A DNA stretch of 64,000 bases from NCBI RefSeq assembly GCF_011634835.1, contig NZ_SIRP01000001.1, positions 2,847,511-2,911,510 of the forward strand, given 5' to 3'. Within the stretch, counting starts at the first letter, position 1. Each line of letters starts with the position of its first letter. The notes below the pieces were generated by a model. The model had not been told where the DNA came from, ran no database searches, and worked only from the letters and a program-made list of their open reading frames with translations. The position numbers were made by a program, and so were the translations under genes. Source of the stretch: Isoptericola sp. BMS4. Its GTDB lineage: Bacteria > Actinomycetota > Actinomycetes > Actinomycetales > Cellulomonadaceae. This document shows, piece after piece, positions 8,574 to 64,000 of the stretch.

Positions 8574-10076
8574 GTGGCAGACCTCACCCTGACAGGCAAG
8601 AATCCCAGCTCGCTCAAGACCGACGCGCTCGTCGTCGGGACCTGCTCCACCTCCGACGGCGTGGCCGTCGTCGCGGACCAGCTCCCCGCGGACCTCGTCC
8701 GGCAGATCGAGGCGCTCGCTCCCCGCCTCCGCCTCACGGGAGCGACGGACGAGGTGCGCACCCTGCCCGCCGGCGACGACGTCAGGGCCGACGTCCTCGT
8801 GCTGACGGGACTCGGCGAGCGCGACTCCGACGGCACGTTCCCCCGTGAGACGCTCCGCGCGGCCGCCGGCGCCGCCGTCCGCAGCCTCGCCGGCACCTCG
8901 TCGGCCGCGATCGCCCTGCCGGTCGTCGACGAGGACGACCTCGCGGCGGTGGCCGAGGGCGCGCTGCTCGGCGCCTACGCCTACACCCCCTACCGCAGCG
9001 GCGAGCCCGCGGCCGAGCGGACGCCGGTCGAGCACGTCGAGATCGTCACGTCGTCCGCGCGGTCCGCCCGCGCCAAGGCCGCCGCGCACCGCGCGGAGAT
9101 CCTCGCCGCGGCGGTGCACGGCACCCGCGACCTGGTCAACATGCCGCCCAACGACCTGTACCCAGCGGCGTTCGCCGACGCCGCCAAGGCCGCGGTCAAG
9201 GAGCTCGGCGCCAAGGGCGTCAAGATCACCGTCCTGGACGACAAGCAGCTCGTCGCCGGCGGCTACGGCGGCATCGCCGGCGTCGGCCAGGGCTCCACCC
9301 GCGGGCCCCGCCTGGTCAAGCTCACCTACGCCCCGGCCAAGGCGACGTCGAAGGTCGCCGTCGTCGGCAAGGGCATCACCTTCGACACCGGCGGCATCTC
9401 CCTCAAGCCGCCGGCCAGCATGGTCACGATGAAGTCGGACATGGCCGGCGCGGCCGCCGTCCTGCACACGGTGATCGCCGCCGCCCGCCTCGGGCTGCCC
9501 GTCGCGGTGACGGGCTACCTGTGCCTCGCGGAGAACATGCCCGGCGGCGCCGCGCAGCGCCCGTCGGACGTCGTGACGATGCGCGGCGGCAAGACCGTCG
9601 AGATCACGAACACCGACGCCGAGGGCCGCCTCGTCATGGCGGACGGCCTCGTCGCCGCCGTGGAGGACGGGCACGACGCCGTCCTGGACATCGCGACCCT
9701 CACCGGGGCGCAGATGGTGGCGCTCGGCAACCGCACGTCCGGGCTCATGGGGACCGACTCCGTGCGCGACGAGGTCAAGGAGGCCGCCGACGTCGCGGGC
9801 GAGGCCTTCTGGCCGATGCCGCTGCCCGGCGAGCTCAAGGCCGGCCTCAAGTCGCTCGTCGCGGACATGGTGAACTCGGCGCCCGACCGCGCGGGCGGCA
9901 TGCTCTTCGCCGGGCACTTCCTGTCCGAGTTCGTCGGCGACACCCCCTGGGGGCACCTGGACATCGCCGGCCCCTCGTACAACGAGAAGGCGCCGTACGG
10001 GTACACCCCGGCCGGCGGCACCGGCGTCGGCGTGCGCACCCTCCTCGCGTTCCTCGAGGGCCGCGCGGAGAGCTGA
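8574..10076 (+). CDS. pepA: Leucyl aminopeptidase (M17)
   Basis: A 500-residue dinuclear-metal aminopeptidase of family M17 that removes N-terminal residues from peptides in the cytosol. The N-terminal macro-like domain covers about 1-170 and the catalytic domain 180-495. Diagnostic motifs are V-G-K-G-I-T-F-D-T-G-G-I-S-L-K-P (about 264-279) and the metal and bicarbonate site N-T-D-A-E-G-R-L (about 346-353). The GTG at 8574 is preceded by TACCAT and six bases (leaderless). Mycobacteria carry the same gene shortly before the E2 gene of the 2-oxo acid dehydrogenase, as here. Confidence 0.95.
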   Translation: MADLTLTGKNPSSLKTDALVVGTCSTSDGVAVVADQLPADLVRQIEALAPRLRLTGATDEVRTLPAGDDVRADVLVLTGLGERDSDGTFPRETLRAAAGAAVRSLAGTSSAAIALPVVDEDDLAAVAEGALLGAYAYTPYRSGEPAAERTPVEHVEIVTSSARSARAKAAAHRAEILAAAVHGTRDLVNMPPNDLYPAAFADAAKAAVKELGAKGVKITVLDDKQLVAGGYGGIAGVGQGSTRGPRLVKLTYAPAKATSKVAVVGKGITFDTGGISLKPPASMVTMKSDMAGAAAVLHTVIAAARLGLPVAVTGYLCLAENMPGGAAQRPSDVVTMRGGKTVEITNTDAEGRLVMADGLVAAVEDGHDAVLDIATLTGAQMVALGNRTSGLMGTDSVRDEVKEAADVAGEAFWPMPLPGELKAGLKSLVADMVNSAPDRAGGMLFAGHFLSEFVGDTPWGHLDIAGPSYNEKAPYGYTPAGGTGVGVRTLLAFLEGRAES

Positions 10077-54868: not shown

Positions 54869-54946
54869 TCCGCGGGTCTGGGTGTCGCGACCGATGCGCC
54901 CGGCCCGCCCTCGCGCCTAGCGTCGGTGGCGCGAAGGAGGCGGATC

Positions 54947-56038
54947 ATGGCCGAGCGCAGCGAGCACGTGCCGACACTCGTGATCGGCGGCGGGCAGGCG
55001 GGCCTCGCGGTCGCGCACCACCTGCGGGCCCGCGGCAGCGAGTGCCTCGTCGTCGAGGCGAACGCCCGGGTCGGCGACAGCTGGCGCCGGCACTGGGACT
55101 CGATCCGGCTGTTCACCCCCGGCCGGTACGACGGACTGCCGGGCATGCGGTTCCCGGGGGACCCCCGGCGGTACCCCGGCAAGGACGACATGGCGGACTA
55201 CCTCGAGGCGTACGCCGCCGAGCAGGACCTCCCCGTGCGGCTCCGCACCCGGGTGGACCGCCTCGGCGCAGGCCCCGACGGCGGCTTCGTCGCCTCGGTC
55301 GGCACCGCCGAGATCACCTGTGAGCACGTGGTGGTCGCGACCGGCACGTACACCGGGCGACCGCGGGTCCCGGCGTGCGCTGCCGAGCTCGCGCCGGGGG
55401 TCCGGCAGCTGCACTCCAGCGAGTACCACCGGCCGTCGGACCTGCTGCCGGGGCCCGCGCTCGTCGTCGGCGCGGCGAACTCCGGCTGCGAGATCGCGTT
55501 CGAGCTCGCCGCGGACCGGCGCGTCGTCCTGTGCGGGCGGGACCCGGGTCACGAACCGTTCCGGCCCGGCACCGCCGCGGACAGGCTGGCCGTGCCGGCG
55601 ACCGTCTTCGTCGCCCGGCACGTCGCCACCCGCCGCGGGCCGCTGGGCCGCCGCCTGCTGACGTTCCGGCACCACGGCATCCCTGTCGGCCGGGTCCGGG
55701 CGAAGGACCTGCGGGCGCGGGGCGTCGAGAAGGTCGAGGCCCGCATGACCGGCGTCGAGGGAGGGATGCCCGCGCTCGGCGACGGCAGCGTGCACGAGGT
55801 CGCGAACGTGGTGTGGTGCACGGGGTTCGCGCCGGACTACGGGTGGATCGACCTGCCCGCGTTCGACGACGACGGCTTCCCGCGCGAGTACCGAGGGATC
55901 GCCGACGACGTGCCCGGCCTGTACTTCTGCGGGCTCGTGCTGCAGCACTCCGTCGCGTCGTCGGTGCTGCCGGGCGTCGGCCGGGACGCGGCGTTCGTGG
56001 CCCGCGCGCTCACAGCAGCCCCAGAGCGACCGCGATGA
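54947..56038 (+). CDS. Flavin-containing monooxygenase-like NAD(P)/FAD oxidoreductase
   Basis: A 363-residue flavoprotein related to CzcO/ArsO-type monooxygenases. FAD motif G-G-G-Q-A-G at 11-16, then R-V-G-D-S-W-R-R-H-W near 39-48, G-T-Y-T-G-R-P near 134, NADP motif V-G-A-A-N-S-G near 176-182, and C-T-G-F-A-P-D-Y near 290. The canonical F-x-G-x-x-x-H-x-x-x-Y/F motif appears as V-R-Q-L-H-S-S-E-Y. ATG at 54947 has AAGGAGG upstream. Its last 29 bases overlap the convergent crtEb gene. Substrate unknown; expression probably depends on the LuxR protein before it. Confidence 0.85.
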   Translation: MAERSEHVPTLVIGGGQAGLAVAHHLRARGSECLVVEANARVGDSWRRHWDSIRLFTPGRYDGLPGMRFPGDPRRYPGKDDMADYLEAYAAEQDLPVRLRTRVDRLGAGPDGGFVASVGTAEITCEHVVVATGTYTGRPRVPACAAELAPGVRQLHSSEYHRPSDLLPGPALVVGAANSGCEIAFELAADRRVVLCGRDPGHEPFRPGTAADRLAVPATVFVARHVATRRGPLGRRLLTFRHHGIPVGRVRAKDLRARGVEKVEARMTGVEGGMPALGDGSVHEVANVVWCTGFAPDYGWIDLPAFDDDGFPREYRGIADDVPGLYFCGLVLQHSVASSVLPGVGRDAAFVARALTAAPERPR

Positions 56039-56939
56039 GGAGCTGCGTCACGAGGAACCCGCTGACCATGTTCAGCCAGAGGAACCGGCGCCACCCCGGC
56101 CGGGCCCGCTCGCACTCCTCGTCACGGAGCCGGCGGTACGGCGCGATGCTGAACAGGTACGGCAGCGGGACGACCGCGGCGAGCAGGGCCGGCCACCCCG
56201 CGGCCGCCATCGCCACGGCCGCGAGCGCGTAGCCCGCCATCGCCGCCCGCACCGTGGCGCCGGCGCCGAGCCATGTGGCGACCGAGGCGATGCCGGCCGC
56301 CCGGTCGGCGACGACGTCCTGCACGGCACCGAACGCGTGCGAGGCCATCCCCCACAGGAAGAAGGCCACGAGGGTCGCGACCGCGGTCCGGCCCGGCTCG
56401 GCGCCCGCGAGCGCGAGGCCGAACACGGCGGGGCTGACGAAGTGCGTGCTGGACGTGACGGAGTCCAGCACCGGGCGCTCCTTGAACCGGAGCACGGGGA
56501 CGGAGTAGGCGACGACGGCGACGACGCTCACGGCGAGCACCGCCGTCGACGCCGGCGTCCCGGCCAGGACAAGGAACACCAGGAAGGGCGCGTTGGCCAG
56601 GCCGGACGCCCACAGCACCGTGCGGTGCCAGGCCCGGTCCAGCACCACGCCCTCGACGCCGCCCTTGCGGGGGTTGCGCAGGTCCGACTCGTAGTCGAAG
56701 ACGTCGTTCACCCCGTACATCAGCAGGTTGTACGGGATCAGGAAGTACAGCGCGCCGACCACGAGGACGGCGTCGAGACCACCGCCGCCCAGCAGGTAGG
56801 CGGCCGCGAACGGGTAGGCCGTGTTGACCCAGCTGATCGGGCGGGACGCTCCCAGGAGCTGGGCGAGGACGCCGCCCGGCACCGACCGCGAGACCCCGGC
56901 CGACGCGCCTGCCGAGCCCGACGGGGCCGGCGCGCTCAC
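56010..56939 (-). CDS. crtEb: Lycopene elongase/hydratase-type UbiA prenyltransferase
   Basis: A 309-residue UbiA-family membrane enzyme. Prenyl diphosphate motifs are N-D-V-F-D-Y-E-S-D (78-86) and D-V-V-A-D (208-212); eight or nine helices fill the rest. As last gene of a carotenoid operon beside crtYe/crtYf it should add two dimethylallyl units to lycopene, giving C50 flavuxanthin, as CrtEb in Corynebacterium glutamicum or CrtE2 in Micrococcus. GTG start overlaps the crtYf stop (GTGA). Confidence 0.9.
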   Translation of the reverse strand: MSAPAPSGSAGASAGVSRSVPGGVLAQLLGASRPISWVNTAYPFAAAYLLGGGGLDAVLVVGALYFLIPYNLLMYGVNDVFDYESDLRNPRKGGVEGVVLDRAWHRTVLWASGLANAPFLVFLVLAGTPASTAVLAVSVVAVVAYSVPVLRFKERPVLDSVTSSTHFVSPAVFGLALAGAEPGRTAVATLVAFFLWGMASHAFGAVQDVVADRAAGIASVATWLGAGATVRAAMAGYALAAVAMAAAGWPALLAAVVPLPYLFSIAPYRRLRDEECERARPGWRRFLWLNMVSGFLVTQLLIAVALGLL

Positions 56940-57265
56940 GCCGCCTCCTCACGCGCGGGTCCCCCGCGACCGCCGAGCAGCTGCCACACCGCGGGGAGCA
57001 GGAGCGCCGCGGCCAGGGGCCAGGCGAAGTCCTCCACGGGCGCCGCGCCGACACGCAGCCCGCTCAGCGCGGCCTCGTCGAACCGGTAGAGGTCGGCCGC
57101 GATCATGAGCGAGTCGAAGACCGCCGTGAGGACGACGAGCGCGGCGGCCACGAGCACGACGCTCCCCCACCACCGGGCACCCGGCCGCACCCGGACCGCG
57201 CACACCAGGGCCACCACCGCCGCGACGACGACGACGCCGCACGCCAGCCAGCCGTAAGAGCTCAT
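56936..57265 (-). CDS. crtYf: C50 carotenoid cyclase subunit
   Basis: A 109-residue membrane protein with three hydrophobic helices. V-F-D-S-L-M-I-A-A-D-L-Y-R-F-D near 49-63 matches the conserved core of the lycopene cyclase subunit family, and P-V-E-D-F-A-W-P near 76-83 is the P-x-E-D/E-x-x-x motif of these cyclases. Works as a heterodimer with the product of the preceding gene to form the end rings of a C50 carotenoid. Whether rings are epsilon (decaprenoxanthin) or gamma (sarcinaxanthin) cannot be told. ATG overlaps the crtYe stop. Confidence 0.85.
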   Translation of the reverse strand: MSSYGWLACGVVVVAAVVALVCAVRVRPGARWWGSVVLVAAALVVLTAVFDSLMIAADLYRFDEAALSGLRVGAAPVEDFAWPLAAALLLPAVWQLLGGRGGPAREEAA

Positions 57266-57612
57266 CGACCCACCTCCTGCTCACGACGGGCGCGAGCCGA
57301 CCGCCGCGCGCCGAACCGTTCGGCGACACCCCACAGCACCATCGTGAGGTAGCACAGGAACGTCACGAAGACGACCTCCTCGATCGGCAGGTGCGGCAGG
57401 ACCTCGATCCCGCTCAGGGCCGCGCCGCCTCCGCGACCGTAGAACCCGAGCGCGATCGCCGCGAGGTCGGCGAGCAGGAAGAACACCACCCCGCACGCGA
57501 CGGTGACGGCGGCGCGGCGGGGCGTGGCGAACGCGAACAGGCGCCACCGCCGGTCCACGGCGGCCGTCCCCGCCACGGACACCAGGAGACACGCCAGGTA
57601 CAGCCACCTCAT
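57262..57612 (-). CDS. crtYe: C50 carotenoid cyclase subunit
   Basis: A 116-residue membrane protein with three helices, the partner of crtYf. D-R-R-W-R-L-F near 20-26 and L-P-I-E-E-V-V-F-V near 76-84 are the family signatures (the latter being the P-x-E-E motif). Heterodimeric cyclases of this type occur in actinobacteria and arose from the same ancestor as the archaeal and fungal CarRA cyclase domain. ATG at 57612 overlaps the crtI stop by four bases (ATGA). The C-terminal tail is basic. Confidence 0.87.
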   Translation of the reverse strand: MRWLYLACLLVSVAGTAAVDRRWRLFAFATPRRAAVTVACGVVFFLLADLAAIALGFYGRGGGAALSGIEVLPHLPIEEVVFVTFLCYLTMVLWGVAERFGARRSARARREQEVGR

Positions 57613-59180
57613 GCCGGCTCCGGCAGCGGGCCCGCGGACCTGTCCCCGCGCAGCCGCTTGAGGACGAGCTCCGCGCTGATCAGGCACATCGGCAGGCCGA
57701 TCCCCGGGATCGTGCTGGCCCCGGCATAGTAGAGGCCGTCCACGGCCCGGGAGGCGTTGCGTCCGCGCAGGAACGCGCTCTGTCGCCACGTGTGGGCCGG
57801 GCCCAGCGCTCCCCCGGACCAGGCGTGCAGGTCCGCGGCGAAGTCGCCCGGGCCGACCGTGCGCCGCAGGACGACGCGCTCGGCGAGGTCGTGGACGCCG
57901 GACCACTCCGCGACCAGCGTGACCGCGGCGTCCGCCACCCGCTCGACGGCGGGGTCGCCGGCGCCGTCGAGCCCGCCCCGGCCGAGCCGCGGGTCGGCCG
58001 GCACGGGAACGAGCACGAACAGGTTCTCGAACCCGTCGGGGGCGACCGTCGGGTCGGTCGCCGACGGGCGGCAGACGTAGCAGGAGGCAGGGTCCGGCAC
58101 CCGCTTCTGCGCACCGAAGACGTCGTCGAAGTTCCGTTCCCAGTCGCGGGTGAAGAAGAGCGAGTGGTGGGCCAGCTCCGGCAGCGCGCCGCGGACCCCG
58201 AGATTGACCAGGACGGCGCCCGGCCCGGGGTCGCGTCGCTCCCACCAGGGCTCCGGGTAGGTCTGCACCTCGGGCGGCAGCAGCGCGGTCTCGACGTGGT
58301 GCAGGTCCGCGGCGCCCACGACGACGTCGGCGGCGAGGAACCGCTCATGGCCGTCCTGCCGGAACCGGACGCCGGTGGCCCGGGCACGCCCGCGCGACGG
58401 CGTCGTCGTCGTGACGGCCGTGACCGTCGCGCCCGTGCGCAGGCGGGCGCCCTCCTTCTCGGCACGCGCGGCGATCGCCTCGACGACGCGGGCGAACCCG
58501 CCCCGCGGGTAGCGCACGCCGTCGACCAGGTCGAGGTGGCTCATCATGTGGTACATGCTGGGCGCCCGGTCCGGCGACGACCCGAGGAAGACGGCCGGAT
58601 ACCCGAGGATCTGACGGAGCCGCCGGTCGGAGAACGACCGCGCGACGAAGGTGTCCAGCGTGGTGCGCAGGAGGGAGACCAGGCGAGGCGCGCTCGCCAG
58701 GACCTCGCGGCGCAGGAACGGCACCGGCGACTCGAAGCTCGTGTAGAGGAAGCTGCGCGTCGCGACGTCGTGCACCTCGCGCGCCGACGCGAGGTAGCGC
58801 TCGAGCCGGGCCCCTGCCCCGGGCTCGAGCGCCTCGAACGTCGCGACGTTGGCCGCCACGTCGGCGCGCACGTCCACGGGGCGCTCGTCGCCCTCGAAGA
58901 AGACGCGGTACCCGGGGTCGAGGACGTCGAGGTCCAGCTCGGCCTCGGCCGTCGTGCCCAGCAGGCGGAAGAAGTGGTCGAAGGCCTCGGGCATCAGGTA
59001 CCAGGACGGACCGGTGTCGAAGCGGAACCCGTCCTGGGACCAGGAGCCCGCACGGCCGCCGAGGTGCTCCTGCTGCTCGAGCAGCTCCACGTCGTACCCG
59101 TCGCGCGCCAGCAGGGCGGCGGTCGCGAGCCCCGCGACACCGCCGCCGACGACGACCGCCCGCCGGGGCGTGCCCGTCAC
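57609..59180 (-). CDS. crtI: Phytoene desaturase
   Basis: A 523-residue CrtI-type FAD enzyme that converts phytoene to lycopene. The dinucleotide motif is V-V-V-G-G-G-V-A-G-L near 9-18, followed by L-G-G-R-A-G-S near 40; S-S-P-D-R-A-P-S-M-Y near 216 and the C-terminal signature D-G-L-Y-Y-A-G-A-S-T then P-G-I-G-L-P-M complete the family pattern. GTG start overlaps the crtB stop by four bases, and its own stop overlaps crtYe. Membrane-associated, uses oxygen or quinone as acceptor. Confidence 0.95.
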   Translation of the reverse strand: MTGTPRRAVVVGGGVAGLATAALLARDGYDVELLEQQEHLGGRAGSWSQDGFRFDTGPSWYLMPEAFDHFFRLLGTTAEAELDLDVLDPGYRVFFEGDERPVDVRADVAANVATFEALEPGAGARLERYLASAREVHDVATRSFLYTSFESPVPFLRREVLASAPRLVSLLRTTLDTFVARSFSDRRLRQILGYPAVFLGSSPDRAPSMYHMMSHLDLVDGVRYPRGGFARVVEAIAARAEKEGARLRTGATVTAVTTTTPSRGRARATGVRFRQDGHERFLAADVVVGAADLHHVETALLPPEVQTYPEPWWERRDPGPGAVLVNLGVRGALPELAHHSLFFTRDWERNFDDVFGAQKRVPDPASCYVCRPSATDPTVAPDGFENLFVLVPVPADPRLGRGGLDGAGDPAVERVADAAVTLVAEWSGVHDLAERVVLRRTVGPGDFAADLHAWSGGALGPAHTWRQSAFLRGRNASRAVDGLYYAGASTIPGIGLPMCLISAELVLKRLRGDRSAGPLPEPA

Positions 59181-60085
59181 GACCGGCCCCCGAGAACGAG
59201 GGCGCGCACCAGGATCCACGCCTTGCCCGCCGCGGGCACCCGCACGCGCGTGCGTCGCAGACGGCCCGGGGGCACGCGGCGCAGCCGGCGCGAGAGCGCG
59301 GCGAACAGCCCGTGGGCCGCGCCCACCGCCCGGCGGCTGCTGCGCGGCAGGCGCGCCACGGCGGTCGCGGCGACCGCGAGGTCGGCGTCGATGTCGTCGA
59401 GGATCTGGTCCCGGCGCGCGGCGTCGAGGCGCCCGCCGGTCCCCGGGAGGTAGGTCCGGCCCCGCAGGTCCTCGTCGGCGCCCAGGTCGCGCAGGAAGTT
59501 GACCTTCTGGAACGCCGCGCCGAGCCGCCGCGCCCCCGGGGCGAGATCGTCGTAGTCGGCCCGGTCCGCCGCGTCCGGGGCGGCGACGAACACCCGCAGG
59601 CACATCAGGCCGACCACCTCGGCGGACCCGTACACGTAGTCGGCGAGCGTGTTCTCGTCGTGGCTCGTCACGCTGAGGTCGGTGCGCATGGACGCGAAGA
59701 AGGGCCGGATCAGGTCGGACCCGATCCCGCACTCGCGCGCCGTCAGCGCGAAGGCGTGCACGACGAGGTTGGTGCTGCGGCCGGTCGCCACGGCGTCGAG
59801 GGTCTCGGCCTCGAGCGCGTCGAGCTGCGCCCCGGTCCGGGGGTCGCCCGCGGCCGGCCCGTCGACGAGCTCGTCGGCCACGCGGACGAGGGCGTACACG
59901 TCACGCACGTGGGTCCGGACGGGCTCCGCCAGCAGCCGGCAGGCCCAGCCGAACGACGTCGAGTAGCCGGCGATGACGGCGCGGGCGCTGCGGCGGGCGA
60001 CCCGGTCGTACAGGGGGTCCGCCGGGACGCTCGCCGCGGTGACGGGGACGGCCGACGCGGCACGGGCCTCGGTCCGGGCGGTCAT
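59177..60085 (-). CDS. crtB: Phytoene synthase
   Basis: A 302-residue squalene/phytoene synthase that condenses two geranylgeranyl diphosphates to phytoene. Asp-rich motifs are D-E-L-V-D (71-75) and N-F-L-R-D-L-G-A-D-E-D (195-205); the start Y-S-T-S-F near 41-45 is also conserved. Ends with a basic R-R-L-R-R-V-P-P-G-R tail common to actinobacterial members. ATG overlaps the crtE stop (ATGA). Confidence 0.95.
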   Translation of the reverse strand: MTARTEARAASAVPVTAASVPADPLYDRVARRSARAVIAGYSTSFGWACRLLAEPVRTHVRDVYALVRVADELVDGPAAGDPRTGAQLDALEAETLDAVATGRSTNLVVHAFALTARECGIGSDLIRPFFASMRTDLSVTSHDENTLADYVYGSAEVVGLMCLRVFVAAPDAADRADYDDLAPGARRLGAAFQKVNFLRDLGADEDLRGRTYLPGTGGRLDAARRDQILDDIDADLAVAATAVARLPRSSRRAVGAAHGLFAALSRRLRRVPPGRLRRTRVRVPAAGKAWILVRALVLGGRS

Positions 60086-61131
60086 GCCGCCTGCCTGAGC
60101 ACGCCGCGGGTGCGGTCGTCCAGCCAGTCGAGCAGCTCGGTAGGCAGCCCCACCTCCGCGGCCAGCCTGAGTGCGGCCTCGAGCCGGTCCCGCGCGACGT
60201 CCTCCACGAAGCGCCGCGAGCCGCTCTCCTCCAGCAGCGCGCACACGCGGTCCGCCTGCGCCGGGGTGAGCGACGACGACCCGTGCAGCGGGGCGATGGA
60301 GGCCCACTGCGGGGTGGAGCGAGCATGGGCGACGAGCAGCGTCACCCGTCCCTGACGGAGGTCGGTGAGGCGGCTCTTGCCGCTGCGCTCCTCGTCGCCG
60401 AACGTCCCGATGAGATCGTCCTGGAGCTGGAACGCGAGGCCGGCGAGCCGCCCCACGTCCCCCAGCCGCTCGACGACGTCCGGCCCCGCCGCGGCGAGAA
60501 GGGCTCCGGCCTGCAGGGGAAGCGCGAAGGAGTAGGCCGCCGTCTTGCGCTCGGCCGCGGCGACCACCTCCTCGACGGTGGCCTCGCCGACGCCCGCGGA
60601 GAGACCGACGTCCGCCAGCTCGCCCGCGGCGCTGACGTGCACGGCGCGGTCGACGAGGTCGTACAGCCGCCGGAGGGTGGCCGGCGGCGCGCCGCACAGC
60701 GCGATCGCGCGCAGCGCCCCCGCCAGGGCCAGGTCGCCCGCGAGGATGCCCGCGGTGTCCGCGTAGGCGCGCTGGCCCGGCTCTCCGGCTCCCGCGTCCC
60801 GGGCGCGGCGCGCCGCCGCGCCGGACACGTTGGGGCGGCCGCGCCGGGTGCGGTCCCCGTCGATCACGTCGTCGTGGGCGACGAACGCGGTGTGCAGGAG
60901 CTCGACGGCGGCGCCGACGTCGGCGGCGAGGCGCCGGTCCCGGCCGCCGTACGCCAGGTACGTCGCCGTGAGCAGCGCCGGGCGGAACCGCTTGCCGCCG
61001 GACGTCGATTCCGCCACGTCCGACCACAGGTCGCGGTAGGGGTCCCCGAGGTCGCGGGAGATGACGTCCCCGCGCCGGGCGAACTCGCGCAGCGCGGGCG
61101 AGGGGTCGAGCCGCGGCACCGTCGCCGTCAT
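60082..61131 (-). CDS. crtE: Geranylgeranyl diphosphate synthase
   Basis: A 349-residue trans-prenyltransferase. First Asp-rich motif D-D-V-I-D (87-91) with the aromatic or small residues before it that set chain length, second motif D-D-L-I-G-T-F-G-D (238-246), and G-G-K-R-F-R-P at 45-51 binding isopentenyl diphosphate. Supplies C20 diphosphate to phytoene synthase. In C. glutamicum the CrtR repressor senses this product. ATG overlaps the idi stop (ATGA). Confidence 0.95.
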   Translation of the reverse strand: MTATVPRLDPSPALREFARRGDVISRDLGDPYRDLWSDVAESTSGGKRFRPALLTATYLAYGGRDRRLAADVGAAVELLHTAFVAHDDVIDGDRTRRGRPNVSGAAARRARDAGAGEPGQRAYADTAGILAGDLALAGALRAIALCGAPPATLRRLYDLVDRAVHVSAAGELADVGLSAGVGEATVEEVVAAAERKTAAYSFALPLQAGALLAAAGPDVVERLGDVGRLAGLAFQLQDDLIGTFGDEERSGKSRLTDLRQGRVTLLVAHARSTPQWASIAPLHGSSSLTPAQADRVCALLEESGSRRFVEDVARDRLEAALRLAAEVGLPTELLDWLDDRTRGVLRQAA

Positions 61132-61709
61132 CGGAGCGGCTCCGGCCAGGTCTCGGACGTGCCCCGGGACCCGCGCAGCTCGGGCACCTGCGCCACCGAC
61201 CAGGGGCTCAGTATCCACGGCGCCACGTCCACCAGGACCTCCACGTCCTCGATCCGTACCCAGCGTAGGTCCATGATCTCGTCCGGGTGGGGCTCCGGAT
61301 CGGCCTCGGAGGAGGCGAAAAATACGGGACAAACCTCGTTCTCCACCACGCCCCCGGCATCGACGGCGCGGTAGCGGAAGTCCGGGAGCACCACGTCCAC
61401 GGTGTCGAGGTCCATCCCGAGCTCGTGGCGGGCGTGCCGGCGGACGGCGTCCTGCAGGGCCTCCCCCTCGCGGGGATGACCGCAGAAGGAGTTGGTCCAC
61501 ACCCCGGGCCAGGTGCGCTTGGACAGCGCCCGCCGGGTGAGCAGCAGCTCCCCGTCGGGGCGGAAGAGGTAGCAGGAGAACCCGAGGTGCAGGGGTGTGT
61601 CACGCGTGTGGACGGTCGCCCGTGGCGCCGTCCCCGCGGGGGCACCCTCCTCGTCGAGCAGGACCACGTGGTCGGGGGTGTCGGCACCCAACGCTCTCCA
61701 CCTCCGCAT
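61128..61709 (-). CDS. idi: Isopentenyl-diphosphate delta-isomerase, type 1
   Basis: A 193-residue Nudix-fold isomerase interconverting isopentenyl and dimethylallyl diphosphate, the two building blocks used by crtE and crtEb. Catalytic Cys76 is in T-N-S-F-C-G-H-P and the acidic site is E-N-E-V-C (about 123-127); metal His residues near 34 and 41. First gene of the carotenoid operon. ATG at 61709 stands 13 bases from a CTAGCC palindrome and seven from TTATTT, with no ribosome binding site, so translation is probably leaderless. Confidence 0.92.
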   Translation of the reverse strand: MRRWRALGADTPDHVVLLDEEGAPAGTAPRATVHTRDTPLHLGFSCYLFRPDGELLLTRRALSKRTWPGVWTNSFCGHPREGEALQDAVRRHARHELGMDLDTVDVVLPDFRYRAVDAGGVVENEVCPVFFASSEADPEPHPDEIMDLRWVRIEDVEVLVDVAPWILSPWSVAQVPELRGSRGTSETWPEPLR

Positions 61710-61722
61710 GTCGACCAAATAA

Positions 61723-61735
61723 CTAGCCCGGCTAG
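61723..61735. promoter_or_regulatory. CrtR-type operator 1 (carotenoid operon/regulator)
   Basis: CTAGCC, C, GGCTAG: a perfect 6-1-6 inverted repeat between idi and the divergent MarR gene. Read towards idi it is GCTAGCCGGGCTAGTTA, nearly the same as operator 2 at 62329-62341. It lies just upstream of, or over, the -10 region of the carotenoid operon. Confidence 0.75.
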
Positions 61736-61760
61736 CAATAAGGAAAGGTAGCATCGAACC

Positions 61761-62294
61761 ATGCCGCTCACCAGTCCACGCCCGTACTGGTACGACGACG
61801 ACCGTGCGGTCGTCGCCGTCCTCGAGGCGCTGCGCCGGTTCCGGCGCGCGGACCAGGAGATGCGCACGCGGATCAGCGCCGGCATGCGGATGAACGTGAC
61901 GGACCTGCAAGCGCTGCGGTTCGTCATCGCCGCGGAGCGCCGCGGCACGGCCACGACTCCCCGTGCGCTGGCCGAGCACCTGCACATCTCGACGGCATCG
62001 ACCACCAAGCTGCTCGACCGCCTCGCCGCCTCGGGGCACCTCGTCCGGGAGCCGCACCCCACCGACCGCCGCTCGCTCGTCGTCGTCGCCACCGACCACG
62101 CGCACCACGAGGTGCGGGAGCGCCTGGCCCGCATGCACGAGGAGATGGCGCAGATCGCCCACGACATCCCCCCCGCGGCCCGTCCGTCCGTCGAGCAGTT
62201 CCTGCTCGCCATGGCGGACCGGCTCGAGCAGGAGGGCGACGTCGAGCCCCTGCGCCCCGACCCGCACCTCGACGGCCCGAGCCCGACCGCCTGA
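61761..62294 (+). CDS. MarR family regulator of carotenoid genes (CrtR-like)
   Basis: A 177-residue MarR-type winged-helix protein: T-P-R-A-L-A-E-H-L-H-I-S-T-A-S-T-T-K-L-L as HTH (about 70-90) and the wing R-E-P-H-P-T-D-R-R-S. It is divergent from the carotenoid operon, the same arrangement as crtR in Corynebacterium, whose product represses crt genes and is released by geranylgeranyl diphosphate. Family and position make this function likely. ATG follows TAGCAT by six bases (leaderless); operator 1 is immediately upstream. Confidence 0.88.
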   Translation: MPLTSPRPYWYDDDRAVVAVLEALRRFRRADQEMRTRISAGMRMNVTDLQALRFVIAAERRGTATTPRALAEHLHISTASTTKLLDRLAASGHLVREPHPTDRRSLVVVATDHAHHEVRERLARMHEEMAQIAHDIPPAARPSVEQFLLAMADRLEQEGDVEPLRPDPHLDGPSPTA

Positions 62295-62328
62295 CCTGGA
62301 GGAGGGCTCCCGCGCGGCGCGCATATCG

Positions 62329-62341
62329 CTAGCCAGGCTAG
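62329..62341. promoter_or_regulatory. CrtR-type operator 2 (SDR-DUF2867 gene)
   Basis: CTAGCC, A, GGCTAG: perfect 6-1-6 inverted repeat, next to TAACAT (62342-62347), the -10 of the downstream gene. Sequence, flanks (G before, TNA after) and distance to the start codon match operator 1, so the same protein should bind both. Confidence 0.75.
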
Positions 62342-62353
62342 TAACATTGCCTC

Positions 62354-63874
62354 ATGCCTCCCACCCCGCAGGCACGCAGCCGACCGAGCGCCGGCGACCT
62401 CGTCCTGGTCACCGGCGCCACGGGCTACATCGGCGGCAGGCTGGTCCCGGAGCTCCTCGACGCCGGCTACGCCGTCCGCGTGCTGGCACGCCACCCCGAG
62501 CGGATCGCCTCGCGGAGCTGGGCCGACGACGTCGAGGTCGTCCCCGGCGACGCGACCTCCCGCGACGACCTGCGCCGGGCCCTCGCCGGGGTCGACGTCG
62601 CCTACTACCTCGTCCACGCGCTCGGTGCCGGGCGAGGGTTCGCCGACCGTGACCGCGCCACCGCGCGGGGCTTCGCGACCGTGGCCCGGGAGCGAGGCGT
62701 GCGCCGCGTCGTCTACCTGGGCGGCCTGCACCCCGCCGACGAGCGGCTGTCGCCCCACCTGGAGTCGCGGCGTGAGGTCGGCGAGATCCTCCTCGACGGC
62801 GGCGTGCCCACGGTGGTGCTGCGGGCCGCCGTGATCCTCGGCTCCGGCAGCGCGTCGTTCGAGATGATGCGCTACCTCACCGAGCGCCTGCCCGCGATGG
62901 TCGCCCCGCGCTGGATCGACAACCGCATCCAGCCGATCGCCGTGCGCGACGTGCTGCGCTACCTGGTGGGGGCCGCGAGCATCCCGTCCGACGTCAGCCG
63001 GGCCTTCGACATCGGCGGGCCCGACGTGCTGACGTACCGCGAGATGATGCAGCGGTACGCCGCGGTGGCGGGACTGCGCCCCCGGGTGATCCGCGCCGTC
63101 CCCGTGCTGACGCCCGGGCTGGCGAGCCACTGGGTGGGGCTCGTGACCCCCGTGCCCCCGGCCATCGCCCGCCCGCTCGTCGGCTCGCTCGTGCACGAGG
63201 TCGTCACCCAGGAGGACGACATCAAGGCCTACGTGCCCGACCCCCCGGAGGGCATGCTGGGCTTCGACGCCGCGGTCGAGCTCGCGCTGACGCGGATCCG
63301 CGACCTGGACGTGCGCACGAGCTGGACGTCTGCCTCGACGCAGGGCGCGCCGTCGGACCCGCTCCCCCAGGACCCGGACTGGGCGGGCGGCAGCCTTCTC
63401 GTGGACGACCGCTCCCGCGAGGTGCGCACCACTCCCGAGGCGCTCTGGACGGTCGTCGAGGGCATCGGCGGCGCGCACGGCTGGTACTCGTGGCGTCTCG
63501 GCTGGGTGGCCCGAGGGGCCATGGACAGGCTCTTCGGCGGCCCGGGGCTGCGCCGCGGGCGCCGGCACCCGCACCGGCTCGCCCCCGGCGACGCCCTCGA
63601 CTGGTGGCGGGTGGAGGCCGTCGAGCCCGGGCACCTGCTGCGCCTGCGCGCGGAGATGCGGCTGCCCGGCCTCGCCTGGCTCGAGCTCTCCGTGGAGCCG
63701 GGCGACCCGTACCCCACGTTCCGCCAGCGCGCGATCTTCTACCCCCGGGGCCTGCTCGGCCAGGCGTACTGGTGGGCGATCAGCCCGTTCCACGGCATCG
63801 TCTTCGGCGGCATGCAGCGCAACATCGCCCGCGCCGCCGAGGCCGGACCGCGCGGAAAGGCCCACGACAAGTGA
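62354..63874 (+). CDS. Atypical SDR (NAD(P)-binding) fused to DUF2867
   Basis: A 506-residue protein. Residues about 15-300 are an atypical short-chain dehydrogenase/NmrA-like Rossmann domain with V-T-G-A-T-G-Y-I-G-G (19-28) and Y-Y-L-V-H near 84; the classical Y-x-x-x-K is not evident. The C-terminal part (about 345-495) is DUF2867, with E-A-L-W-T-V-V-E-G-I-G-G near 361-372 and R-Q-R-A-I-F-Y-P-R-G-L near 458-468. Function unknown. ATG at 62354 follows TAACAT by six bases. A CrtR-type operator in front ties it to carotenoid control, perhaps in modifying pigment, quinone or lipids. Confidence 0.85.
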   Translation: MPPTPQARSRPSAGDLVLVTGATGYIGGRLVPELLDAGYAVRVLARHPERIASRSWADDVEVVPGDATSRDDLRRALAGVDVAYYLVHALGAGRGFADRDRATARGFATVARERGVRRVVYLGGLHPADERLSPHLESRREVGEILLDGGVPTVVLRAAVILGSGSASFEMMRYLTERLPAMVAPRWIDNRIQPIAVRDVLRYLVGAASIPSDVSRAFDIGGPDVLTYREMMQRYAAVAGLRPRVIRAVPVLTPGLASHWVGLVTPVPPAIARPLVGSLVHEVVTQEDDIKAYVPDPPEGMLGFDAAVELALTRIRDLDVRTSWTSASTQGAPSDPLPQDPDWAGGSLLVDDRSREVRTTPEALWTVVEGIGGAHGWYSWRLGWVARGAMDRLFGGPGLRRGRRHPHRLAPGDALDWWRVEAVEPGHLLRLRAEMRLPGLAWLELSVEPGDPYPTFRQRAIFYPRGLLGQAYWWAISPFHGIVFGGMQRNIARAAEAGPRGKAHDK

Positions 63875-63890
63875 AAGTAAGTGCTTACTT
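63875..63890. promoter_or_regulatory. TetR-type operator at the window edge
   Basis: AAGTAAG, TG, CTTACTT: perfect 7-2-7 inverted repeat overlapping the stop codon region of the preceding gene and lying before TAGGGT (63895-63900), the -10 of the TetR gene. Likely autoregulatory site. Confidence 0.6.
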
Positions 63891-63907: not shown

Positions 63908-64000
63908 ATGAGCCCGCACCGTCCTCCCGAGACCCGCGCACGCATCCTCACCGAGGCCATGCGCCTCTTCGGCGAGAACGGCTTCGCCGCGACCCGCGTC
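63908..64000 (+). CDS. TetR family regulator, N-terminal fragment
   Basis: Only 31 codons are in the window: T-R-A-R-I-L-T-E-A-M-R-L-F-G-E-N-G-F-A-A-T then R-V, the first helices of a TetR DNA-binding domain. The gene continues beyond 64000. ATG at 63908 follows TAGGGT by seven bases, so it is probably leaderless and controlled by the palindrome at 63875-63890. Confidence 0.85.
   Translation, partial: MSPHRPPETRARILTEAMRLFGENGFAATRV

Follow-up and report, generated by a model that had tools for sequence, protein, structure and literature searches.

Analysis of a 64,000-nucleotide stretch of the Isoptericola sp. BMS4 genome (the window) revealed two copies of the palindrome CTAGCC-N-GGCTAG, one between a C50 carotenoid operon and a divergent marR gene, the other in front of the next gene, which encodes an SDR-DUF2867 protein. 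The two sites, their positions, their uniqueness in the genome and their conservation in relatives were observed directly. From them we infer that the marR product, a CrtR-type repressor, binds the sequence TNNCTAGCCNGGCTAGNNA and represses the idi-crt operon, its own gene and the SDR-DUF2867 gene, with release linked to isoprenoid supply or to light; we consider this reading highly probable. The operator would mark the SDR-DUF2867 oxidoreductase as co-regulated with C50 carotenoid synthesis, which opens its role to direct tests in soil bacteria and, through cg0727, in C. glutamicum.

Organization of the locus and position of the operators

The carotenoid operon lies on the minus strand. Its first gene, idi, encodes isopentenyl-diphosphate isomerase (61128..61709; NCBIfam NF002995, 2.8e-74, above cut-off) and is followed by crtE-crtB-crtI-crtYe-crtYf-crtEb (56010..61131), assigned from domains and gene order: polyprenyl synthetase (crtE), squalene/phytoene synthase (crtB), amine-oxidoreductase (crtI), lycopene cyclase (crtYf) and UbiA prenyltransferase (crtEb). 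A Pfam search with crtYe gave no match and this gene was named by its position. The genes are tightly packed, relatives keep the same order idi-crtE-crtB-crtI-crtYe-crtYf-crtEb, and idi-crtEBIYeYfEb is the gene set of a C50 carotenoid. At the far end of the operon the crtEb frame meets a facing frame for a flavin-dependent oxidoreductase (54926-56038), and the two share their last 29 bp (56010-56038).

The marR gene (61761..62294, plus strand) encodes a CrtR-type repressor of 177 aa, placed in a tree with CrtR of Corynebacterium; its winged-helix domain was recognized by PF12802 (MarR_2, 1.2e-12) and PF01047, both above cut-offs. It is followed on the same strand by the SDR-DUF2867 gene (62354..63874; 506 aa), whose product has an N-terminal NAD_binding_10/NmrA domain and a C-terminal DUF2867 domain. 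Just behind this gene there is a 7-2-7 inverted repeat, AAGTAAG-TG-CTTACTT (63875-63890). A frame that starts at 63908 and runs off the window has a weak TetR_N match (E 0.0026, below cut-off), and the repeat looks like the operator of that regulator itself.

Operator 1, CTAGCCCGGCTAG (61723..61735), is situated in the 51-bp gap between idi and marR, 13 bp from the idi start (CAT at 61707-61709) and 25 bp from the marR ATG at 61761. Operator 2, CTAGCCAGGCTAG (62329..62341), is situated in the 59-bp gap between marR and the SDR gene, 12 bp before the ATG at 62354. Both are exact matches, and no strand was assigned to either. An earlier note on this DNA had located the palindromes at these positions, at distances of 13 and 12 bases from the start codons of the two targets, and in this it was correct. 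It had also claimed that the flanks of the two sites agree. This holds for T at -9 and A at +9, which are constant in 21 of 21 sites from this genome and its relatives and give TNNCTAGCCNGGCTAGNNA; the remaining flank bases differ among the 21 sites.

The SDR start is preceded by CTAG-TAACAT-6 bp-ATG and the marR start by TAGCAT-6 bp-ATG, which provides candidate -10 elements on the plus strand at 62342..62347 (TAACAT) and 61749..61754 (TAGCAT). The latter also occurs shortly before the marR start in six relatives (L045, L046, L047, L048, L052 and L057). Both may be -10 elements of leaderless transcripts. If so, site 2 would be directly upstream of the SDR -10 element, and site 1 would span the core promoter of idi as well as the upstream portion of the promoter for marR.

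Occurrence of the operator in the genome

The assembly searched comprises 4,433,416 bases (4.43 Mb) in 47 contigs and is 99.99% complete. CTAGCC-N-GGCTAG was found in exactly two places, both in the window, and the reversed control pattern in six. The shorter form CTAG-N5-CTAG, with eight fixed bases, occurs genome-wide at the same two places only (364 for the reversed control); no third site was detected anywhere in the assembly, a statement that holds for this form alone. CTAG itself is rare: the window has 15, four of them inside the two sites. Given how often CTAG occurs in the window, independence would predict about 0.24 CTAG-N5-CTAG pairs per genome, and this is an over-estimate because the frequency includes the four CTAGs of the sites themselves. 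With up to two mismatches to CTAGCC-N-GGCTAG there are 204 matches in the genome against 816 for the control, and six in the window against 1.93 expected. Such forms are common, and near matches are therefore not discriminating. The genome-wide search, proposed in the earlier note, thus yielded only the two target sites and no spread of the motif over unrelated places.

Conservation of the operator in related genomes

The exact word was found in 10 of 58 genomes drawn as relatives and in 30 of 221 family genomes (34 sites); 191 of the 221 are without it, and many of these retain degenerate forms. We examined 33 of the 34 exact sites, leaving out the second site of G499. Twenty-eight of them adjoin a CrtR-type marR, idi/crtE, SDR or mmpL gene, which bears out the conservation that the earlier note had proposed to look for: 22 are next to a CrtR-type marR, idi or crtE, or the SDR-DUF2867 gene, three are next to a MarR gene of the sister clade (see below), and three precede an MMPL gene (G567, G576 and G029). 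MmpL genes are known crtR neighbours (PMC7432914, PMC5401885). The other five sites are located elsewhere.

The site between marR and idi/crtE recurs in relatives belonging to several genera. In Georgenia the exact word is present at two of the three marR genes seen, and Leifsonia and Brachybacterium have near forms. At marR of other genomes of the same genus as our strain only degenerate forms were found. Five of these loci (L049, L055, L058, L060 and L062) carry upstream of marR not one but two adjacent imperfect palindromes, approximately 16-20 bp apart.

Two further arrangements were observed. MMPL transporter genes are preceded by the exact operator in four family genomes (L243, L248, L041 and L043), and in L043 a sister-clade MarR gene is located on the other side of the operator. 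At L249 and L251 (G594 and G604) the exact operator separates a CrtR-type MarR gene of the sister clade from a gene for pyrimidine dimer DNA glycosylase, an arrangement that may link DNA repair to the same operator.

The MarR protein

A tree of 48 MarR sequences, rooted at the midpoint without an outgroup and with long branches flagged, contains two well-supported groups (split support 100/99). Group 1 holds CrtR of two Corynebacterium genomes that have the published C. glutamicum crtR start, and group 2 holds the window MarR. In this midpoint-rooted tree the window protein is consequently not in the clade of C. glutamicum CrtR and belongs to its sister clade. The TTAA motif, essential in the published C. 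glutamicum operator, was sought in both intergenic regions of the window and is absent from them; the operator word therefore differs from that of C. glutamicum. The likeness to crtR of Corynebacterium suggested by the earlier note is thus correct in that the gene encodes a CrtR-type MarR protein and is divergent from idi-crtEBIYeYfEb, and does not extend to one-to-one orthology or to a TTAA operator.

The crt loci of Promicromonospora and Antribacter encode group-1 CrtR proteins and yet have nearly the same operator word (ATAGCCTGGCTAG and the like). The recognition region of the window MarR, STASTTKLLDRL, is close to that of the Promicromonospora and Antribacter proteins (SSASTTKVLDRL in Promicromonospora L076), and Corynebacterium L283 has SPASVTKTLNRL. 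These regions fit, as a correlation only, a common operator in the window, Promicromonospora and Antribacter and another one in Corynebacterium. This clear palindromic operator thus seems to be common to two CrtR clades.

The SDR-DUF2867 gene and its operator

We analyzed 80 named SDR loci. CTAG-N5-CTAG is present within 260 bp upstream of the gene in all 13 loci at ≥83% identity and in none of the other 67, three of which have less than 100 bp of upstream DNA. In Isoptericola and Krasilnikoviella the site reads CTAGCCTGGCTAG or differs from it by one mismatch; in Promicromonospora and Antribacter it reads CTAGCCTATCTAG or CTAGCCTAACTAG. Ten of the 13 site-bearing loci (Promicromonospora, Antribacter and Isoptericola sp. 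QY 916) gave no CrtR-type gene in the fetched flanks with four queries, the flanks of three (L115, L120 and L135) being cut by contig ends. The SDR gene therefore retains its own site away from crtR. In Antribacter L113 crt genes are found within 10 kb of the SDR gene.

In an alignment of site 2 the core without its three centre columns has a mean pairwise identity of 0.99, against 0.41 and 0.37 for the flanks. Presence of the core was the criterion by which the rows had been selected; T at -9 and A at +9 played no part in the selection and are constant in 14 of 14 rows, a set that overlaps the 21 sites described above.

A CrtR-type gene is present in 12 of the 80 loci, from seven genera; four Streptomyces or Kitasatospora loci with weaker MarR matches (35-37% identity) were left out of this count. 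The SDR gene of Occultella glacieicola has no site in front of it, and its start codon shares bases with the marR stop codon (TGATG); in three Corynebacterium genomes the SDR gene is closely behind a MarR gene. With the SDR gene directly behind marR, a separate site is not needed there. SDR genes of less than 83% identity near a CrtR-type gene in Georgenia, two other Occultella, Leifsonia, Brachybacterium and Cellulomonas fimi SB have neither the site nor such an arrangement.

The domain assignment of the SDR-DUF2867 protein is based on PF13460 (8.1e-20) and PF11066 (5.2e-37). A profile built from 28 orthologues matches NAD(P)-binding SDR proteins of solved structure, including NDUFA9 of complex I and NmrA-like proteins. 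The conserved region YLGGLHP...SPHLxSRxEVG is without an evident YxxxK, as are atypical SDRs. The DUF2867 domain alone found no relative among solved structures; its weak match to Polyketide_cyc2 (E 0.0019, below cut-off) hints at a lipid-binding fold. The E. coli protein matched in the PF11066 search, which we take to be YbjT, shares DUF2867 with the window SDR, and we know of no link of YbjT to carotenoids. In the literature searched, DUF2867 turned up in a single unrelated paper and not in connection with carotenoid.

Proposed regulation and alternative explanations

In the proposed mechanism a dimer of the MarR protein (61761-62294) would bind TNNCTAGCCNGGCTAGNNA. At site 1 the dimer would lie over the core promoter of idi and the upstream portion of the promoter for marR, and, judged by operator position, both the idi-crt operon and marR would be repressed in this way. 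At site 2 the dimer would cover the core promoter of the SDR-DUF2867 gene and act by steric occlusion. The release signal may be isoprenoid supply, with geranylgeranyl diphosphate as the best candidate, or light; after release, pigment synthesis and the SDR protein would rise together. Geranylgeranyl diphosphate is a candidate ligand of the window MarR by analogy: C. glutamicum CrtR and five orthologues were released by it in gel shifts (PMC7432914). Isoptericola species with the crtR-crt layout make a carotenoid-like pigment in light (PMC6739363), and light may therefore act through the window MarR.

The regulon predicted by the earlier note, idi-crt together with the SDR gene, gains support from the uniqueness of the sites in the genome, from their conservation and from SDR orthologues that have the site and whose fetched flanks gave no CrtR-type gene. 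It is very probable that SDR-DUF2867 forms part of the pigment programme, and its product would serve carotenoid synthesis or photoprotection. Counting against the proposed regulation are the five of 33 exact sites located elsewhere, the 191 of 221 family genomes without the exact word, the SDR genes of less than 83% identity without a site, the absence of TTAA from both intergenic regions and the fact that cg0727 is missing from the table printed in PMC5401885.

An origin of both palindromes by chance would be favoured by the high frequency of forms with up to two mismatches, of which there are 204 in the genome. This explanation was rejected and is next to impossible, since CTAG-N5-CTAG is limited to two places in the genome, both here, and is conserved in family genomes and in SDR orthologues. 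The two sites could instead be operators of another regulator, a distant paralogue or a member of a different family, and not of the MarR protein encoded between them. Some genomes do have two CrtR-type MarR genes (G031, G047 and L066), and the exact word is also found beside sister-clade MarR genes and before mmpL. Nevertheless we hold another regulator to be improbable: our genome has one strong MarR homologue (the next among the matches listed is at E 9.0e-7), relatives from several genera have the site in the gap that separates marR from idi/crtE, and a sister-clade protein would still count as a CrtR-type repressor.

Slightly less probable again is that site 1 alone is functional, with site 2 a leftover beside marR and the SDR gene expressed by read-through from marR. 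The overlapping marR and SDR genes of Occultella glacieicola, without a site before SDR, and the three Corynebacterium genomes with a MarR gene directly before SDR speak for this reading. Against it, the site is present in Krasilnikoviella, Isoptericola sp. QY 916, Antribacter and Promicromonospora, where the SDR gene does not immediately follow marR (in Krasilnikoviella, idi is placed between the two). We thus favour repression of all three transcription units by the window MarR.

A wider role can be suggested only tentatively, and we think it somewhat less likely than not. SDR-DUF2867 could be a so far overlooked core component of photoprotection by carotenoids in actinobacteria, brought under CrtR-type control by its own operator, by an operon with crtR or by a place in the crt cluster. 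It could use its NAD(P) domain, together with a domain that may bind a hydrophobic ligand, to act on a carotenoid, isoprenoid or quinone. For Isoptericola the crtR-crt layout has been published before (PMC6739363). Neither a palindromic operator of this form, nor its occurrence in two CrtR clades, nor an SDR-DUF2867 target with its own site was found in the text of the literature searched.

Comparison with Isoptericola and Corynebacterium systems

The crtR-crt clusters of Isoptericola jiangsuensis and I. dokdonensis have the same layout and light-induced pigment; no operator or SDR target for them was found in the text of PMC6739363. In P. nicotinovorans the CrtR orthologue is divergent from idi, as in the window (PMC7432914).

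Among MarR-type repressors of carotenoid genes in bacteria, CrtR of C. glutamicum (cg0725) was called the first to have been studied in some detail (PMC5401885). It is a MarR-type repressor beside crt genes with a divergent promoter, an operator over promoter elements and autoregulation (PMC5401885, PMC6739363); the window shares these features, the repression and autoregulation as predictions. It represses by covering -10/-35 (PMC5401885, PMC6739363) and needs TTAA in its operator (PMC5401885), which was presented as a stretch that contains a short TTAA motif and later as a 15-bp motif around TTAA (PMC7432914). According to the text of PMC6739363 inverted repeats were not found in its footprint, and the C. 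glutamicum genome may have only one CrtR site (PMC5401885). The window differs in its sister-clade protein, in its 6-1-6 palindrome without TTAA and in a second predicted operator at the SDR-DUF2867 core promoter.

An 'epi' gene is named in Corynebacterium crt clusters (PMC5401885), and cg0727 is given as a nucleoside-diphosphate-sugar epimerase in PMC12113857. From position we infer that cg0727, or 'epi', corresponds to the SDR-DUF2867 gene: the L283 gene at this position has SDR and DUF2867 domains, and the PF11066 search matches C. glutamicum. The Corynebacterium SDR proteins are 44-50% identical to the window SDR. Matches to the SDR reached E 0.001 in 101 of 151 Corynebacterium genomes and were strong (E below 1e-40) in 38. 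Among the matches listed, a MarR homologue is within 1.5 kb of the SDR gene in 8 of 30 loci. Twenty larger regions were fetched, eight of them chosen since a MarR gene had already been seen, and 14 of the 20 contain either a CrtR-type MarR or crtB together with crtI. The SDR gene of Corynebacterium is often located within the crt locus. The order in L283 is crt operon, crtR, a minus-strand frame for a secreted protein (read as cg0726 by position) and SDR.

The published C. glutamicum crtR start, sought in 394 genomes of the class, gave 3-mismatch matches only. A leave-one-out matrix built from five crtE-crtR sites ranked the gap between the cg0726-like gene and SDR first or second in five of five regions, the fifth being weak (13.1 against 11.7 for the next). 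The training sites were chosen and aligned after both gaps had been seen, and the result is therefore supportive and not blind. With matrices from the sites of the other species (rank 1 or 2), a second CrtR operator is predicted in this gap at L283 11664-11687, L284 11416-11439, L285 11317-11340 and L286 10847-10870. In 15 further Corynebacterium regions the matrix scored 26.0 just before crtR of L298 and 15-17 in L293, L296 and L298 at places not before SDR; none of the other 12 exceeded 13.1.

In L283 the predicted second site ends 110 bp before the SDR start, near the start of the lipoprotein gene on the opposite strand. It therefore more likely controls the lipoprotein gene; such a site would explain the rise of cg0726, 8-10 fold without crtR (PMC5401885). 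Direct control of SDR by CrtR in C. glutamicum is without support in print, because the predicted site is closer to the cg0726-like gene and the crtR-deletion table as printed in PMC5401885 has no entry for cg0727. In one comparison in PMC12113857, cg0726, cg0727, crtE and crtB change in parallel, with values from -1.05 to -1.17.

The CTAGCC word was not found with up to one mismatch in the 20 Corynebacterium regions, and 12 of the 20 have two-mismatch forms. In L289 a two-mismatch palindrome (9320-9332) is present just before marR, which encodes a MarR protein of the window clade and is directly followed by the SDR gene.
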